From positions 1 to 22,462 of the IMG/VR virus record IMGVR_UViG_3300009181_000382: a DNA stretch of 22,462 bases. One strand, given 5' to 3'. The translations under genes were made by a program, and so were the position numbers. Below the pieces are notes generated by a model. It did no database searches. It was not told the DNA's origin and worked only from the letters and a program-made list of their open reading frames with translations. The DNA comes from a virus. Shown here piece by piece: positions 7,397-19,540 of the stretch; position 1 is the stretch's first letter; each line of letters opens with the position of its first letter.

Positions 7397-7581
7397 CCCA
7401 CGACAAGCCTTTTATTATTCCGCACACCGGAGACACGCCCGCAGTTCTGTTTTGGGCGGGTCGGATGCACTCAATGGACCCGAATACGGCATTGCTCTGG
7501 ATCGTCAGGCTCACCGAGTACCTCTACAGCCACAACGTAATCGTGCTGCCCGAGCCCGCCTCCGAGGTGACGGATGAGTGA
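7393..7581 (+). CDS. Small conserved-looking phage protein of unknown function
   Basis: A 62-residue protein starting at ATG 7393 in an ATGA overlap with the metallopeptidase gene and ending 8 nt inside the endolysin gene. The sequence has hydrophobic and aromatic residues spread evenly (FIIPHTGD, TALLWIVRLTEYLYSHNVIVLP), as in a small folded domain. No signal peptide or membrane span is seen. A different frame starting at 7338 covers the same DNA but is Arg-rich and poor. Tight coupling on both sides argues that this is a real gene. Confidence 0.65.
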   Translation: MTHDKPFIIPHTGDTPAVLFWAGRMHSMDPNTALLWIVRLTEYLYSHNVIVLPEPASEVTDE

Positions 7582-7987
7582 CATCCTAGACGACCTGATC
7601 CGCGACGAGGGGATGGTCCTTAAGCCCTACCGCGACACGGTGAACAAACTGACCATCGGTGTAGGGCGGAACCTCGATGACGTGGGCATCTCGGAAGAAG
7701 AAGCCCGCGCCATGCTCAACGCGGACGTTGACCGCGCCGAAAGTGGGCTGCGCAAGACGTTTCCGTGGTTCCTGACCGCGCCCGAACCAGTACAGCGTGG
7801 CCTTGTAAACATGGTTTTTAACATGGGCCTCACCCGCCTTACGCAGTTCGGGAAGATGCTCAGCGCCCTTGCGGCCAAGGACTACGACACCGCAGCGGCG
7901 GAAGCCATCAAGAGCAAGTGGGCAACCCAAGTCGGCACCCGCGCCGTGCGTATCGCGGAGCTTTTTGAATCAGCAAAGGAGAAATGA
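7574..7987 (+). CDS. Endolysin, T4-type lysozyme (GH24)
   Basis: A 137-residue muramidase. The catalytic triad of T4 lysozyme relatives is visible: Glu12 in RDEG, Asp21 in PYRDT and Thr27 in KLTIGVG. The helical core follows, with LVNMVFNMG and a closing WATQVGTRAVRIAELF. Length and motif order match cytoplasmic phage lysozymes, which cut the NAM-NAG bond of peptidoglycan. There is no signal peptide or SAR helix, so it needs a holin to reach the cell wall. It overlaps the upstream gene by 8 nt and is followed at once by a holin candidate, then spanins. Confidence 0.92.
   Translation: MSDILDDLIRDEGMVLKPYRDTVNKLTIGVGRNLDDVGISEEEARAMLNADVDRAESGLRKTFPWFLTAPEPVQRGLVNMVFNMGLTRLTQFGKMLSALAAKDYDTAAAEAIKSKWATQVGTRAVRIAELFESAKEK
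7975..7981 (+). promoter_or_regulatory. Ribosome binding site deciding the holin start
   Basis: AAAGGAG ends only 2 nt before ATG 7984 but 8 nt before the in-frame ATG 7990. The spacing favours 7990 as the main start. Two closely spaced in-frame starts resemble dual-start holins, so the longer form may also be made. Confidence 0.6.
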
Positions 7988-9239: not shown

Positions 9240-9355
9240 AAGACCCGGCGCAGGCCCTAGATGACGGCATCAGTTGGTGGGACCGCGAGAAGTTCAAGGT
9301 GGGCATTATCCTCGGGTATGTGGTGGCTCTGCTTCAGGTGTGGTGGGCGAGTTAA
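9236..9355 (+). CDS. 39-residue membrane protein at the end of the late operon
   Basis: The frame begins at ATG 9236 in an ATGA overlap with the lipoprotein stop and ends at TAA 9353-9355. The N-terminal half is polar (MKDPAQALDDGISWWDREKF). The C-terminal half (VGIILGYVVALLQVWWAS) forms one membrane span with an aromatic end. The coupled start and clear topology support a real gene. It may be an accessory lysis protein. Its last 4 bases overlap the end of the convergent zinc-cluster gene. Confidence 0.6.
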   Translation: MKDPAQALDDGISWWDREKFKVGIILGYVVALLQVWWAS

Positions 9356-9873
9356 CCCCGCTCGCATCGCAGCGTATCGAATGTTACCGGATACTTTCCT
9401 TCACCCATTTTATGCCTGCGGCCAGTTATGCCGTTTTTGGAATCAACCCAGCATCCCATTGAGCAGAAGAAACCACGCTCCTGGGTAACAATTCTTTTTC
9501 CGTATGGGGCGGCGTGCGAGGTCACAGTCATGCTTTTGCGGATTTGGAATAAAACCCCGCAAACTTGACAATTACGCTCCCACCTATTCGCTGCGTTTTG
9601 GCAAGCCCGCGAGCAATATATTTTTGTCTTTATGTTTGCGGGCGGTCGGTGAAACGTGGTTTTGCAAAACTCGCATGTAACCATTGAGCGTTTCTCCGTA
9701 GTCGCCTTACGCCCCATCAGGTTGAACTTTGTATAAGTGCATTTGGTGCATCTAAGGGACTTCGAGTCCTTCCTCACCATGCGTTCGGCCAAACATTCCG
9801 GGCATTTCCGCAACTCATAGCGGCGCGTTTGACCGCCCTCGAATGCAGTTACTAATGGAGATGATTCATTCAT
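9352..9873 (-). CDS. Protein with three four-cysteine zinc sites
   Basis: A 173-residue protein with twelve Cys in three regular sets: C24/C27/C42/C45, C67/C70/C87/C91 and C102/C105/C137/C141. Each set has the paired CxxC or CxxxC layout of a zinc ribbon or treble-clef finger (for example CPEC...CTKC and CEFC...CSRAC). Similar cysteine-rich modules accompany HNH or homing nucleases and DNA-binding phage proteins, but I see no nuclease core, so DNA or RNA binding is the safest inference. The basic end (GRRHK) fits. No clear ribosome binding site precedes ATG 9873. It converges on the late operon. Confidence 0.65.
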   Translation of the reverse strand: MNESSPLVTAFEGGQTRRYELRKCPECLAERMVRKDSKSLRCTKCTYTKFNLMGRKATTEKRSMVTCEFCKTTFHRPPANIKTKIYCSRACQNAANRWERNCQVCGVLFQIRKSMTVTSHAAPYGKRIVTQERGFFCSMGCWVDSKNGITGRRHKMGEGKYPVTFDTLRCERG

Positions 9874-12104: not shown

Positions 12105-12902
12105 TCAGCCCCCACACAATCCAGAATCGCACCCGCTTCCGCTGTGTGATTCCTCAAGCTCAAAAACACCCTGTTCTTTAGCGTATTTACCCGGCGGTGA
12201 TTTGGCCCACCGGACGATATCTCTAATGCCCAGCGCGGACATATGCTTGGCTGGCCTAAACATCACTCGAGGTTTGCCAAGTGACGTATTCCCAAGCTCT
12301 CTTTCAATCGCCTCCACCTTCGCAATATCAGGCTCCTTAAGGTGCCGAATATCTGTCTTGTTCGCGTTAATGCATGGCGAACATTCCTTGCTTCTGTGTG
12401 GCAGCACATCGAACCCGGCGCGGGCTACCAAAGCATTGCGCTCGGCCTCTTTCATGTGAACCAGAGGGCACCGCGTAAGTCGTCCACCTGATGCTGGATC
12501 ATCTTCGATCTCTGCCGGGAACGTCGCGCGCTTCTCGGATTCTTCCCGCCGAACGCCGATCATATTTATTGACCGCCGTTCTGGGTCACGTTCATCAAGC
12601 CACGCGATTGTGGGCAATATTTTGAGGTGCTCGGTGCAGAACTGCATGCCGCTGCGCGGCCAACCTGACTTTTTGCGAACGAGGTTTGCGAGACCAATGG
12701 ATGTCGTGCGCGCAGTTTCAAATCCGTACCTTTGAGCAAGCTGCTCACCCATCCCAACGCGCTCCATCCAATCTTGCCGCGCCCATCCGGTGTCGTTGTA
12801 TAGGCAAACAACGCCATCAAGGCCCGACTCATGCGCCCATTGAATTAGCGCAATGCTGTCGTTTCCATACGACACCTTTAATACATATTGCGGTGTGCTC
12901 AT
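12105..12902 (-). CDS. PP-loop ATPase / PAPS reductase-like enzyme (first copy)
   Basis: A 265-residue protein of the adenine-nucleotide alpha-hydrolase-like superfamily. The N-terminal strand ends in SYGNDS (11-16), a variant of the SGGxDS PP-loop that binds ATP pyrophosphate in PAPS reductases, DndC and thiolating enzymes. YNDTGW (35-40) and GVRREES (116-122) match conserved positions of that group. Cys is placed as in Fe-S or metal-binding members: C89 in FCTEH, C145, C174/C177 in ECSPC, and C258/C263 near the end. The substrate is unknown: sulfate reduction, tRNA thiolation or DNA modification are all possible. ATG 12902 has GGAG 10 nt upstream. It is an early gene in the leftward operon. 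Confidence 0.8.
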   Translation of the reverse strand: MSTPQYVLKVSYGNDSIALIQWAHESGLDGVVCLYNDTGWARQDWMERVGMGEQLAQRYGFETARTTSIGLANLVRKKSGWPRSGMQFCTEHLKILPTIAWLDERDPERRSINMIGVRREESEKRATFPAEIEDDPASGGRLTRCPLVHMKEAERNALVARAGFDVLPHRSKECSPCINANKTDIRHLKEPDIAKVEAIERELGNTSLGKPRVMFRPAKHMSALGIRDIVRWAKSPPGKYAKEQGVFELEESHSGSGCDSGLCGG

Positions 12903-14915: not shown

Positions 14916-15101
14916 TCACTTCGCTCCTGTTTTCTGAGGGGGCCACTGCCCCAATTCCTTAAGTCTGTCTTTCATCGCGTCGGCCTGGTCTGCCAGGCGG
15001 TCGATGTACGAGGTCATGGCGCGCTCGCTGGCGGTGTCGTAGTCCTCGCCTAGGTCGGCCATGCGGCGCTCCATTTCTGCGAACCAAAGGTCTTTGCTCA
15101 T
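14916..15101 (-). CDS. Small early protein between PP-loop and SSB genes (61 aa)
   Basis: ATG 15101 is chosen because it overlaps the stop of the upstream PP-loop gene (ATGA); a longer in-frame start at 15122 would overlap more. The sequence is helical and charged (DLWFAEMERRMADLGEDYDT, then IDRLADQADAMKDRLKELGQ) with no Cys or membrane span. It ends one base before the SSB start. It resembles small phage proteins that act as adaptors, but I cannot assign a role. Confidence 0.65.
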   Translation of the reverse strand: MSKDLWFAEMERRMADLGEDYDTASERAMTSYIDRLADQADAMKDRLKELGQWPPQKTGAK

Positions 15102-15934
15102 ACGCCGCACATCCCCTCGCACTCGTTGTTAAACATGTCGAATTGCCTGCTTCTCTCGTAGACGCTCGCGCTGAAATCTATTTCCGGCAGCGGCTTCATG
15201 CTGTCATGCAAGAACGGCTTCCCAATAGTCACCTGACAGGCTTGGGCTTGGGCTTGGGCTTCAAACGCAACGGCCCTGGCGAACTCCTCGGGCTCATCTG
15301 TCTTGAGGCGCAGCCACTCCTCATCCGAATGGTACGGGCAATAGACACATGCGGATCTGGGTGGGCGCGGGTAACCGTTCCGTTCCATCCACGCCAAACA
15401 ATCTGCGCGCGTCATATTAAGGTCGATTAGGGGCCAGTGGTGCTTTGACCAACTTTCTGGCGACTCTTTGCGCCGGTAGGTTTCATCGCGGGAGATGCCC
15501 AGCCACTTCATAATAAGTGGTGGCATCCCCGGCTTGTGCGCCAAGCGTTCGCGCCTGCTGACAAACAATTTGCACTGGCGTTCCAGGACGGCGACTTTGT
15601 AATCAGCCGTGTATTTGCGACCAATCATTCCTTTGGTGCCGTCCGGGGCCTGGATGTAAAACGGGACCAAAGTTTTCCAGTATTTTTTGCCGCTGCGCTT
15701 GCTGACGGCCAGTTGCAAACCATCATCGGTAAGGTTGCCCGCCGTTACTCTGTAAACCGGAAACGGCAGTTGCTTGGTTAGCCAATCCAACCACGCATAA
15801 ACTGAGCGCGGCTCCGATTGCGTATCCGCAAAAATCGCGCAGTCAGGCATTGGCGTAATTTCCCCGTGCGCAGCCATTAGCGCCATTGTTGACGACTGCA
15901 CGCCGGCCCCGAGGGAGATGACGTTCAGCATCAT
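15098..15934 (-). CDS. PP-loop ATPase-like enzyme (second, different family)
   Basis: A 278-residue protein starting MLNVISLGAGVQSST. SLGAGVQSS (7-15) is a PP-loop variant found in phage and bacterial adenine-nucleotide alpha-hydrolase-like enzymes. FADTQSEP (36-43) follows as in PAPS-reductase relatives. C196/C199 in CVYCPYHSDEEW and C272/C276 near the end suggest an Fe-S cluster or zinc site. SRDETYRRKES (148-158) occupies the place of the GxRxxES-type motif. It shares little with the other PP-loop protein of the operon beyond the fold. Reaction unknown; thiolation or amidation of a nucleobase is a reasonable guess. The start overlaps the ERF stop in ATGA. Confidence 0.8.
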   Translation of the reverse strand: MMLNVISLGAGVQSSTMALMAAHGEITPMPDCAIFADTQSEPRSVYAWLDWLTKQLPFPVYRVTAGNLTDDGLQLAVSKRSGKKYWKTLVPFYIQAPDGTKGMIGRKYTADYKVAVLERQCKLFVSRRERLAHKPGMPPLIMKWLGISRDETYRRKESPESWSKHHWPLIDLNMTRADCLAWMERNGYPRPPRSACVYCPYHSDEEWLRLKTDEPEEFARAVAFEAQAQAQACQVTIGKPFLHDSMKPLPEIDFSASVYERSRQFDMFNNECEGMCGV

Positions 15935-17873: not shown

Positions 17874-17902
17874 ACATTGTCGGATATTTCCGTCACCGTC
17901 AA
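17874..17902 (-). promoter_or_regulatory. Putative leftward early promoter (PL-like)
   Basis: On the minus strand TTGACG (17897-17902) is followed after 17 nt by CAATGT (17874-17879), which is a weak -10. The transcript would start near 17867, about 25 nt before ATG 17841. The operator at 17879-17894 lies inside the spacer, so repressor binding would block polymerase. Inferred from pattern and position. Confidence 0.5.
17879..17894. promoter_or_regulatory. Operator site L1
   Basis: GTCGGATATTTCCGTC is a 16-bp near-palindrome matching the sites at 19254-19269 and 19276-19291 (consensus GWCGGAAATTTCYGWC). It overlaps the putative PL spacer. Confidence 0.65.
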
Positions 17903-17938
17903 CGGGAAAAATCCGCCATGACGGAAATTCTTTCCGAC
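17901..17938. promoter_or_regulatory. Operator sites L2 (degenerate) and L3
   Basis: L3 at 17920-17938 (GACGGAAATTCTTTCCGAC) has both half-sites of the operator motif with 3 extra central bases. Between L1 and L3, 17901-17917 (AACGGGAAAAATCCGCC) looks like a weaker third copy. Site centres are about 20-22 bp apart, so the sites lie on one face of the DNA as in lambda-type operators. Confidence 0.55.
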
Positions 17939-17983
17939 AGCGTTAAAAAGGTTCGGGATTAGGGGGTGACGGGCCTTATGACC

Positions 17984-18289
17984 CTAGGACTTGGGTCGGG
18001 TGCAGCCCTTGCGTTCCCATTTGTCCTTGGCGGCGGCATCGGCCTTGGTCTGCCAGGCCATGTTATCCGGGCGATCCGGGCCACCGCAGGCAAGGGGTTT
18101 TACGTGGTCTATGACCCACCCCGGACAGGGGCCCTTTGTGGCCGCATTGGCGGGGCAGGGGTGGGCCTTCTTGAATTGGGCTATGGCTGCGTCGCTTCGG
18201 GGCTGACGGGCCTCAGACGGGCTTGTAAGGCACGCCAGAGGCAGGCTTAGGCTTGCCAGAACCAAGAGAGCCTTCCGGGACACGTTCAT
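17984..18289 (-). CDS. Exported HNH nuclease-like protein in the repressor operon
   Basis: A 101-residue protein with a signal peptide (NVSRKALLVLASLSLPLACL, probable cleavage near SEA-RQ). The mature part has FKKAHPCPAN, CPGWVIDHVKPLACGG, then DNMAWQT and KDKWERKGC. The IDH...N-M-x-W-Q-T...K-D-x-W-E pattern is an HNH nuclease core, and four Cys could form disulfides in the periplasm. The family is widespread in phages and proteobacteria; its targets are mostly unknown. ATG 18289 gives the best signal peptide; ATG 18310 is an alternative. The first 77 bases overlap the upstream lipoprotein gene. Being downstream of the repressor, it should be expressed in the lysogen. Confidence 0.75.
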   Translation of the reverse strand: MNVSRKALLVLASLSLPLACLTSPSEARQPRSDAAIAQFKKAHPCPANAATKGPCPGWVIDHVKPLACGGPDRPDNMAWQTKADAAAKDKWERKGCTRPKS

Positions 18290-18506
18290 AGCCCGCGCGC
18301 TGGTAATCATCTATGCAACCCCGCAGTCTGGTTTCAGCCCCGGCCCCGCTTCCAAAGGTCTGGGGCGCAACAATCTGGGCCACGGACTGAGCGGAACTAT
18401 ACGGGCCGCATTTGGCGATTTCATCACCCCGGCGAAGGTAAACGATCTCCCCGCCCGCGGCGCAGCCCGAAAGCAACAAAACCCCGAAAATCGCTAATTT
18501 CCGCAT
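18213..18506 (-). CDS. Small lipoprotein behind the repressor gene
   Basis: A 97-residue lipoprotein: signal MRKLAIFGVLLLSGC with lipobox LSGC (Cys15), then IVYLRRGDEIAKCGPY, AETRLRGCIDDYQRAGYERV and a polar Pro/Lys tail. The C-G-P-Y and L-R-G-C-x-x-D-Y-Q-R-x-G-Y motifs resemble a conserved small lipoprotein of proteobacteria with unknown role. ATG 18506 has AAAGGTG 4 nt upstream and follows the repressor stop by 3 nt, so it is almost certainly on the repressor transcript. Its 3' end overlaps the HNH gene's signal peptide coding region in another frame. Confidence 0.75.
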   Translation of the reverse strand: MRKLAIFGVLLLSGCAAGGEIVYLRRGDEIAKCGPYSSAQSVAQIVAPQTFGSGAGAETRLRGCIDDYQRAGYERVPEGSLGSGKPKPASGVPYKPV

Positions 18507-18509
18507 GTT

Positions 18510-19214
18510 TCACCTTTCCAGGTAATCGACCCCGACAACCAGGTGGATCTTGTCCACCTTGTCCTGCTTCCACTGAATGTCCTTGGGCGGGTTGAACTGC
18601 CGGCAAACCACGACGCCCCCGGCCCGCCGCACCAGGCGCTTCACGAAGCACTGACCATCGGTGAGTTGGATCACCACGTCATCGCCCGGGCGGACTTGGC
18701 GGAAAGGATCGACCTGAAGCACCTCTCCGGGCTGGTATCGAGGGTCCATTGACGTGTCATAGACCCTGACCGCATAAGCCTCGGCAACACCTACGAGACT
18801 GGCTGGACGCACGGCGAACCCCCATACTTTACCTTGATCGATAAAGAACCCAGCTTCGCCGCCCCTTCCGTGCCCTAAAATGGGCAAGTCTTTTTGTCCT
18901 GTCTGGGGCGCCGGGATAAAGGTTAGGTTGCCTTTTGGCTTAGAATCAATTGCCATATTTGCGTTATGCGGGCGCACCGGCTCAACCGTGAGTTCGCCGG
19001 AATCAATGCCTAGTATGCGAGCAAGGATGGCGACATCTTCGGCCCGAAGCTCCCGAGGGCTGGCTTTGAAGATGTAATCGTGAAGATACCCACGGGCGCG
19101 GGGCTTTCCGGCGTAGGTCAAACGGGTGGATAGCGCACTGAGGCTGTACCCGGCCTTTTCCGCCAGGGCGAGTAATTTTTTTCGGGCCATGTCTAGGTTG
19201 TCGTTTTCCGCCAT
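18510..19214 (-). CDS. cI: CI-like repressor with S24 (LexA-type) peptidase domain
   Basis: A 234-residue repressor. Residues 8-75 form a helix-turn-helix domain (KLLALAEKAGYSLSALSTRL and LRAEDVAILARILGI). A linker to about 107 leads to the S24 domain: self-cleavage bond most likely Ala121-Gly122 (in GGEAGFF), Ser155 in YDTSMDP and Lys192 in CFVKRLV. The set is complete, so induction by RecA-driven self-cleavage is expected. ATG 19214 has no Shine-Dalgarno sequence; a possible promoter places the transcript start within a few bases of it. The gene faces cro, and the DNA between carries two operator sites. Confidence 0.92.
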   Translation of the reverse strand: MAENDNLDMARKKLLALAEKAGYSLSALSTRLTYAGKPRARGYLHDYIFKASPRELRAEDVAILARILGIDSGELTVEPVRPHNANMAIDSKPKGNLTFIPAPQTGQKDLPILGHGRGGEAGFFIDQGKVWGFAVRPASLVGVAEAYAVRVYDTSMDPRYQPGEVLQVDPFRQVRPGDDVVIQLTDGQCFVKRLVRRAGGVVVCRQFNPPKDIQWKQDKVDKIHLVVGVDYLER

Positions 19215-19253: not shown

Positions 19254-19269
19254 GACGGAAATTTCTGTT
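19254..19269. promoter_or_regulatory. Operator site R2
   Basis: GACGGAAATTTCTGTT matches the 16-bp operator motif; the left half is perfect and the right half is weak. Its centre is 22 bp from that of R1. An extra half-site (GACGGAA) lies at 19242-19248. Confidence 0.65.
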
Positions 19270-19296
19270 TACAACGTCGGAAATTTCCATCAGTAT
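19268..19296 (+). promoter_or_regulatory. Putative rightward early promoter (PR-like)
   Basis: TTTACA (19268-19273) and CAGTAT (19291-19296) with 17 nt spacing. Operator R1 (19276-19291) fills the spacer. The start of transcription is expected near 19303, only about 4 nt before the cro ATG. Confidence 0.5.
19276..19291. promoter_or_regulatory. Operator site R1
   Basis: GTCGGAAATTTCCATC with the perfect 10-bp palindrome GGAAATTTCC at its core is the best-preserved copy of the operator motif. It lies in the PR spacer, so binding should stop cro and the rightward operon. Confidence 0.7.
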
Positions 19297-19306
19297 CCAA
19301 CGCACC

Positions 19307-19540
19307 ATGAGCAAACAACGCAAAAAGCCCAAGAAACCCGACGCCGAATTGATGGCGAGCATTCGCCAATTCATCAAGGCGACCCACATCAGCCCCAGCA
19401 CGTTTGGTCGAGCCGTGGCGAATGATCCAAGCCTGATTGACGGCGTGAAAAAGGGCCGTGAGCTGCGCCGCGAGTTGCGCGCCAAGGTCTTGAATTACAT
19501 CCGCACCCATTCTGCCGAGCAGATGGAAGCAGCGGAATGA
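19307..19540 (+). CDS. cro: Cro-like transcription regulator
   Basis: A 77-residue basic protein, diverging from the repressor gene. After a Lys/Arg-rich start come SIRQFIKATHISPSTFGRAV, which forms a helix-turn-helix (HISPSTFGRAV as the turn and recognition helix), and then DPSLIDGVKKGRELRRELRA. The F-x-x-x-T-x-(I/M)-S-x-(S/T)-x-F-G-x-x-A-x-x-D-P pattern is that of Cro-like proteins of alphaproteobacterial phages. It should bind the same operators and favour lytic growth. No Shine-Dalgarno sequence precedes ATG 19307, and the putative PR start makes the transcript nearly leaderless. Confidence 0.85.
   Translation: MSKQRKKPKKPDAELMASIRQFIKATHISPSTFGRAVANDPSLIDGVKKGRELRRELRAKVLNYIRTHSAEQMEAAE

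Follow-up and report, generated by a model that had tools for sequence, protein, structure and literature searches.

A lambda-like phage immunity region carries a lipoprotein gene and an exported HNH gene with a plausible role in lysogen protection

Results

The repressor operon and its putative operators

The window analysed here is an entire viral contig of 22,462 bases with a GC content of 0.576. It belongs to a temperate phage, as it encodes an integrase, Erf, SSB proteins, an S24 repressor, a primosomal protein and an endolysin. Integrase relatives with up to 48% identity were found in genomes from the phylum to which a Comamonadaceae genome belongs. Two genes that lie apart from each other in one early operon (12105-12902 and 15098-15934, minus strand; phrog_424, 4.5e-27 and 1.3e-43) belong to the phosphoadenosine phosphosulfate reductase family and are possibly linked to DNA or nucleotide modification. 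An HNH protein encoded at 9352-9873 on the minus strand (phrog_1271, 7.5e-8) is unrelated to the exported HNH protein described below.

The repressor operon is read from the minus strand in the order repressor (19214-18510), lipoprotein (18506-18213) and HNH protein (18310 or 18289 to 17984). The product of its first gene has an N-terminal DNA-binding part and an S24 peptidase-like domain; matches to PF00717 (1.1e-10) and to the transcriptional repressor family phrog_4 (1.4e-17) identified it as an S24/cI-like repressor. Between the end of the repressor stop at 18510 and the lipoprotein ATG at 18506 lie 3 nt. A Shine-Dalgarno sequence, GGAAAGGTGAAACATG, precedes this ATG, in agreement with the good ribosome binding site noted in a preliminary description of the locus. 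All coordinates and layout statements of that description held when the sequence was read again.

Repressor-type palindromes of 16 bases, which we regard as putative operators, flank the operon at 17879 on one side and at 19254 and 19276 on the other. A scan of the whole window for the palindrome GACGGAAATTTCCGTC, allowing at most two mismatches, returned these three places against 0.03 expected by chance; the palindrome was itself derived from the flanking regions, and the informative part is that it occurred nowhere else in the window and on both sides of the operon. The putative operators occupy two intergenic regions. Ahead of the repressor gene and a cro-like gene are the putative OR site at 19254-19269 (GACGGAAATTTCTGTT, two mismatches to the palindrome) and a second putative OR site from the same scan at 19276-19291 (GTCGGAAATTTCCATC). 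Ahead of the leftward operon (start at 17877) are the putative OL-side site at 17879-17894 (GTCGGATATTTCCGTC) and a second one at 17919-17939 (TGACGGAAATTCTTTCCGACA), which has the same half-sites with three extra bases. The candidate cro-like small protein (19307-19540, plus strand) is encoded by the first gene of the divergent rightward operon; it was assigned by position and size and had no family match in Pfam or PHROGs. A hairpin with a T run 3' of the HNH stop (17912-17925, minus strand) resembles a terminator, but it is weak and at chance level in a consensus scan.

Because putative operators were present in both flanks of the operon, the lipoprotein and HNH genes would lie between OL and OR. 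The rexAB genes of lambda are located between OL and OR. As judged from the sequence, the immunity region of the window is lambda-like, and its repressor operon ends in a lipoprotein gene and an exported HNH gene. We infer that both genes are co-expressed with the repressor in the lysogen, as had been proposed; this is strongly supported by the 3-nt spacing, the flanking putative operators and the repressor-then-HNH order, which roughly half of the related viral loci share.

The lipoprotein

The lipoprotein (97 aa; 18213-18506, minus strand) begins with a signal peptide containing a classical lipobox, LLLSGC, with Ala at +2. This sequence, MRKLAIFGVLLLSGC, is that of a bacterial lipoprotein. 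An AlphaFold2 model from the single sequence was poor (pLDDT 68). We detected no relatives in viral contigs or in the related HNH loci; the comparison with named phages gave signal-peptide resemblance only, the 398 genomes of the phylum gave only chance-level matches, and none of the PADLOC 2.0 models matched.

The lipoprotein and the HNH protein had been put forward as a pair. Comparison of related loci indicated otherwise: the HNH gene was kept, and the gene between it and the repressor was replaced by genes for unrelated membrane or exported proteins. A conserved lipoprotein-HNH pair was rejected, since no relatives of the lipoprotein were detected in viral contigs, named phages, related loci or the 398 phylum genomes. 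Because relatives exchange it for unrelated envelope proteins and keep the HNH gene, the lipoprotein is probably a separate envelope gene, for surface or entry exclusion, and not a dedicated partner of the HNH protein.

Export of the HNH protein

The HNH gene (17984-18310, minus strand) encodes 108 aa from the ATG at 18310 or 101 aa from the ATG at 18289. The overlap with the lipoprotein gene is 77 nt from the internal ATG at 18289, as first described, and 98 nt from the ATG at 18310. With either start, the coding sequence of the signal peptide MNVSRKALLVLASLSLPLACLTSPSEA falls inside the lipoprotein gene, at its 3' end. Ahead of the HNH gene there is only a weak ribosome site.

The overlap of two genes for exported proteins had been considered unusual. 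We rejected it as a special feature, because the HNH start of one relative (L021) overlaps an upstream lipoprotein gene by 37 nt and other relatives also overlap their upstream gene. A packaging-type HNH protein of the kind found beside terminase was rejected for the window on account of the signal peptide and the location in the immunity region. Most relatives have a cleavable signal, others have a lipobox (L012, L105) or a membrane anchor (L008, L010). These features across the family support the predicted export. As the relatives would reach the envelope by different means, the envelope location itself appears to be conserved.

Sequence, fold and selection of the HNH family

A single-sequence search of viral contigs found 31 relatives of the HNH protein, and an alignment search found 304, of which the best 80 were fetched; a further 26 loci came from genomes. 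In the 31-member alignment, R38, F46, C52, P53, C62, D68, H69, G77, D79, N83, Q87, K95, D96 and E99 were kept, and D68, H69, N83, D96, E99, C52 and C62 were invariant in the family. The third HNH histidine was absent; an invariant K95-D96-x-x-E99 motif (KDxxE) was found further along the helix instead. No third H or N metal ligand was found on the helix, where the column near N83+9 was mostly Ala or Gly. Nuclease activity is therefore not certain.

The window protein scored 13.4 bits with PF01844, below the Pfam cut-off of 21.4 bits, and 15 of the 31 relatives matched this family at E ≤ 0.1, the best at 0.0014. In none of the libraries compared did the family reach a curated threshold, and its scores stayed under the Pfam, NCBIfam and PADLOC cut-offs; PADLOC 2.0, which holds anti-phage defence models, gave no match for the window protein and includes no member of the family. 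An AlphaFold2 model had a beta-beta-alpha fold with a pLDDT of 83.5 (about 88-97 over the mature domain), in which D68-H69 lie in a strand at 65-69 and N83 is followed by a strand at 84-88 and a helix at 89-102. Foldseek matches of this model in the PDB were mostly HNH nucleases, with probabilities up to 0.99 and none below E = 0.1. The top match was the HNH domain of type I-F Cascade (probability 0.99, TM 0.49, E = 0.11), to which the sequence profile of the family also pointed (E = 0.06). Among the best fold matches, the Cas8f-fused HNH domain of this Cascade and the colicin E7/E9 DNases share a D/H-H...GG-D...N core with the modelled protein; unlike it, they are a cytoplasmic effector or bacteriocins and differ in the third metal-binding residue, and the sequence matches were E = 0.06 or weaker. 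The alignment, the predicted model and the Foldseek matches thus support the HNH identity despite the sub-cut-off Pfam score.

The HNH core had a median dN/dS of 0.069 over 61 viral pairs, indicating strong purifying selection, and values of 0.01-0.05 within the cluster of L006, L063, L066 and L075.

Recurrent position behind repressors

We searched the related loci with a repressor profile grown from the window's repressor and applied without regard to position, which may miss or over-call HTH proteins. In 41 of the 77 viral loci with enough sequence, or 27 of 53 clusters at 75% identity, a same-strand repressor was found upstream of the HNH gene at a distance of no more than 1,200 bases. Other placements were fewer: downstream on the same strand (4), upstream on the other strand (6) and downstream on the other strand (3). 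The corresponding value for control ORFs of the same loci was 7.0%; the control ORFs include non-genes, the loci are the best-scoring 80 of 304 relatives and are not independent, and gene starts in the relatives were assigned mechanically. Three more loci (L009, L103, L112) look like repressor-HNH cases that the profile missed. On a tree of the HNH core, which has few columns and weak support, the repressor-operon trait took at least 20 changes by parsimony, at least 5 of them forced by well-supported branches, compared with 29 for shuffled labels. The placement thus seems to be partly inherited, yet frequently gained or lost.

In six further loci (L025, L070, L077, L088, L094, L111), the region before the repressor matched the 250 bases behind the HNH gene with scores of 14-28, a level that the best of about 10 random draws attained in only 3 of 43 loci. 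Such a recurring sequence is as expected for OL and OR. The test succeeded for only part of the relatives, probably owing to the uncertain start positions of many repressor genes.

Genes between the repressor and the HNH gene

By a simple hydrophobicity rule, 29 of 38 middle genes encode a hydrophobic segment of the envelope type, compared with 18% of control ORFs; the products of the L106 and L108 middle genes start with plain signal peptides yet fall below this rule. The middle gene encodes a lipoprotein in the window, L066 (CC0125 family, NCBIfam 8.9e-33), L069, L111 and L021; a tiny membrane protein in L006, L063 and L079; an exported protein in L014, L098 and L108; and a Rap1a-type periplasmic immunity protein, directly behind the repressor and before the HNH gene, in L106 (5599-5976; PF18602, 4.2e-18). 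A family of membrane proteins with a zinc ribbon recurs in the repressor operons of L002, L070, L077 and L088 (phrog_8436 for L070 and L077). L005 and L118 have no middle gene. In L063, the membrane protein is accompanied by an HSDR_N domain protein; this restriction-like protein (L063, 5006-5779, assigned by Pfam), which has a counterpart with a near-identical start in L072 (4951-5721), is another candidate defence gene in a repressor operon. Near-identical HNH genes were joined to different middle genes in L006, L063, L066 and L075, indicating that the HNH gene is the stable part.

Other locations of the family

In the remaining viral loci, about half, the HNH gene lies behind a late activator (L004), near anti-repressors, near terminase, or beside endolysin and spanin-like genes. 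The enzyme is therefore not tied to lysogeny. At L017 (5378-6734), the exported HNH gene is placed between genes for an M15-like endolysin and a spanin-like membrane protein, a lysis-cassette niche. The single named phage with the family among 50,697 records is MW202512, an uncultured podovirus that carries it in the structural region. Two plasmids had the family, one copy being on a cryptic plasmid, as did 5 of 274 and 6 of 369 sampled genomes (the samples overlap), and chromosomal copies without phage context exist.

Discussion

The operon layout, the flanking putative operators, the export signals, the conserved HNH core and the recurrent order of repressor, envelope protein and HNH protein can be read from the sequences. 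Placement, export and conservation together speak for an enzyme that lysogens express and whose DNA substrate lies outside the cytoplasm. The reading we prefer, to which we give a probability of about 45%, is a nuclease in the periplasm whose target is DNA on its way across the envelope, most likely that of superinfecting phages. The repressor operon would be on in the lysogen, and the HNH protein would be secreted to the periplasm and fold there with disulfides between its conserved cysteines. It would then cut double-stranded DNA; the host chromosome would be spared by sitting in another compartment, and envelope-crossing DNA, chiefly of superinfecting phages, would be cut. The DNA of tailed phages usually travels through a protected channel and may be out of reach for an enzyme in the periplasm, which counts against phage exclusion.

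By analogy, phage exclusion is the most likely benefit of the exported HNH protein, because defence genes hold the same operon position in Pseudomonas putida prophage P1 and the membrane nuclease SNIPE cuts at the envelope. In prophage P1, RexAB-type defence genes are in the operon of a CI-like repressor (PMC12894663); these genes, lambda RexAB and the window's genes are alike accessory genes that follow a cI-like repressor, share its transcript and are expressed (in the window, by prediction) in the lysogen. The positional likeness to lambda RexAB extends to the same strand behind cI, between OL and OR. RexAB, however, is a DNA-binding sensor with a membrane channel, whereas the window's effector would be an exported HNH protein, and no homology to RexA or RexB was found, Rex families being absent among the PHROGs, Pfam and PADLOC matches of the window. 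SNIPE cuts phage DNA during injection (PMC13190303) and resembles the predicted HNH protein in being a nuclease at the cell envelope that tells self from non-self by place; it differs in being a single inner-membrane protein with DUF4041 and a cytoplasmic GIY-YIG domain, not a small exported HNH protein. P22 SieA, T4 Imm and Sp, and HK97 gp15 are, like the two predicted products of the window, phage-encoded envelope proteins, but their block to DNA entry involves no nuclease. A review of superinfection exclusion (PMC11436027) nowhere uses the word nuclease, and in the open-licence literature we found nothing on exported, periplasmic or secreted HNH proteins and nothing relevant on HNH genes in repressor operons. 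Protection of lysogens by the window's genes is, on these analogies, plausible.

The strongest rival, which we consider rather unlikely, is that the exported protein is a general periplasmic or secreted DNase against natural transformation or plasmid uptake, guarding the prophage from replacement or curing. The same anatomy of an exported, lysogen-expressed protein would fit, and chromosomal relatives and the cryptic plasmid copy exist. Passages of the literature discuss transformation as a threat to prophages (PMC12637031) and link resistance to transformation to Campylobacter prophages (PMC3995785). The middle genes, however, look like a mixed envelope and defence set, which fits phage exclusion better.

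We regard it as improbable that the HNH protein is a scavenging or structural host enzyme carried as neutral cargo (a moron), using extracellular DNA as food or shaping biofilms, and placed at a tolerated site. The family does occur in chromosomes in other settings, and the phage immunity region is a known site for accessory genes; but phage copies are under strong purifying selection and the gene has been recruited to this operon repeatedly, both of which suggest that the prophage gains from it.

A role in lysis seems more doubtful again. The protein, exported beforehand, would degrade freed host DNA, lower viscosity and help virions spread, which suits the gene's position in L017, directly behind an endolysin gene, and in L095, where it also follows an endolysin gene. 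However, the repressor transcript, which would be off during lysis, carries the HNH gene in the window and in roughly half of its viral relatives, and the window's own lysis gene is distant (7574-7987). Least probable is an HNH fold that has lost catalysis and binds DNA or some other component of the envelope, for instance to block the DNA channel: the missing third histidine and the sub-cut-off Pfam scores would suit it, but 31 diverse members keep D68, H69 and N83 without exception, together with K95, D96 and E99 further along the helix.

Accessory genes behind phage repressors have repeatedly turned out to be defence genes. The window's operon is, as far as the compared loci indicate, one example of a wider pattern among many unrelated environmental phages: one small exported nuclease-type protein, strongly conserved, has been placed behind a repressor repeatedly and occurs on at least 304 viral contigs, in a family almost absent from isolated phages and below family-library cut-offs. 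Should the HNH protein prove to cleave periplasmic DNA, SNIPE would have an exported counterpart, and a gene of some 100 codons would allow a direct test of compartment-based discrimination of self from non-self. We tentatively propose that environmental Gram-negative temperate phages commonly arm their lysogens in this way, with a repressor-driven periplasmic HNH protein that would destroy incoming phage DNA while its compartment spares the chromosome, and with a variable envelope neighbour that may add entry or surface exclusion. If this is true, a widespread prophage defence would be missing from present defence catalogues.
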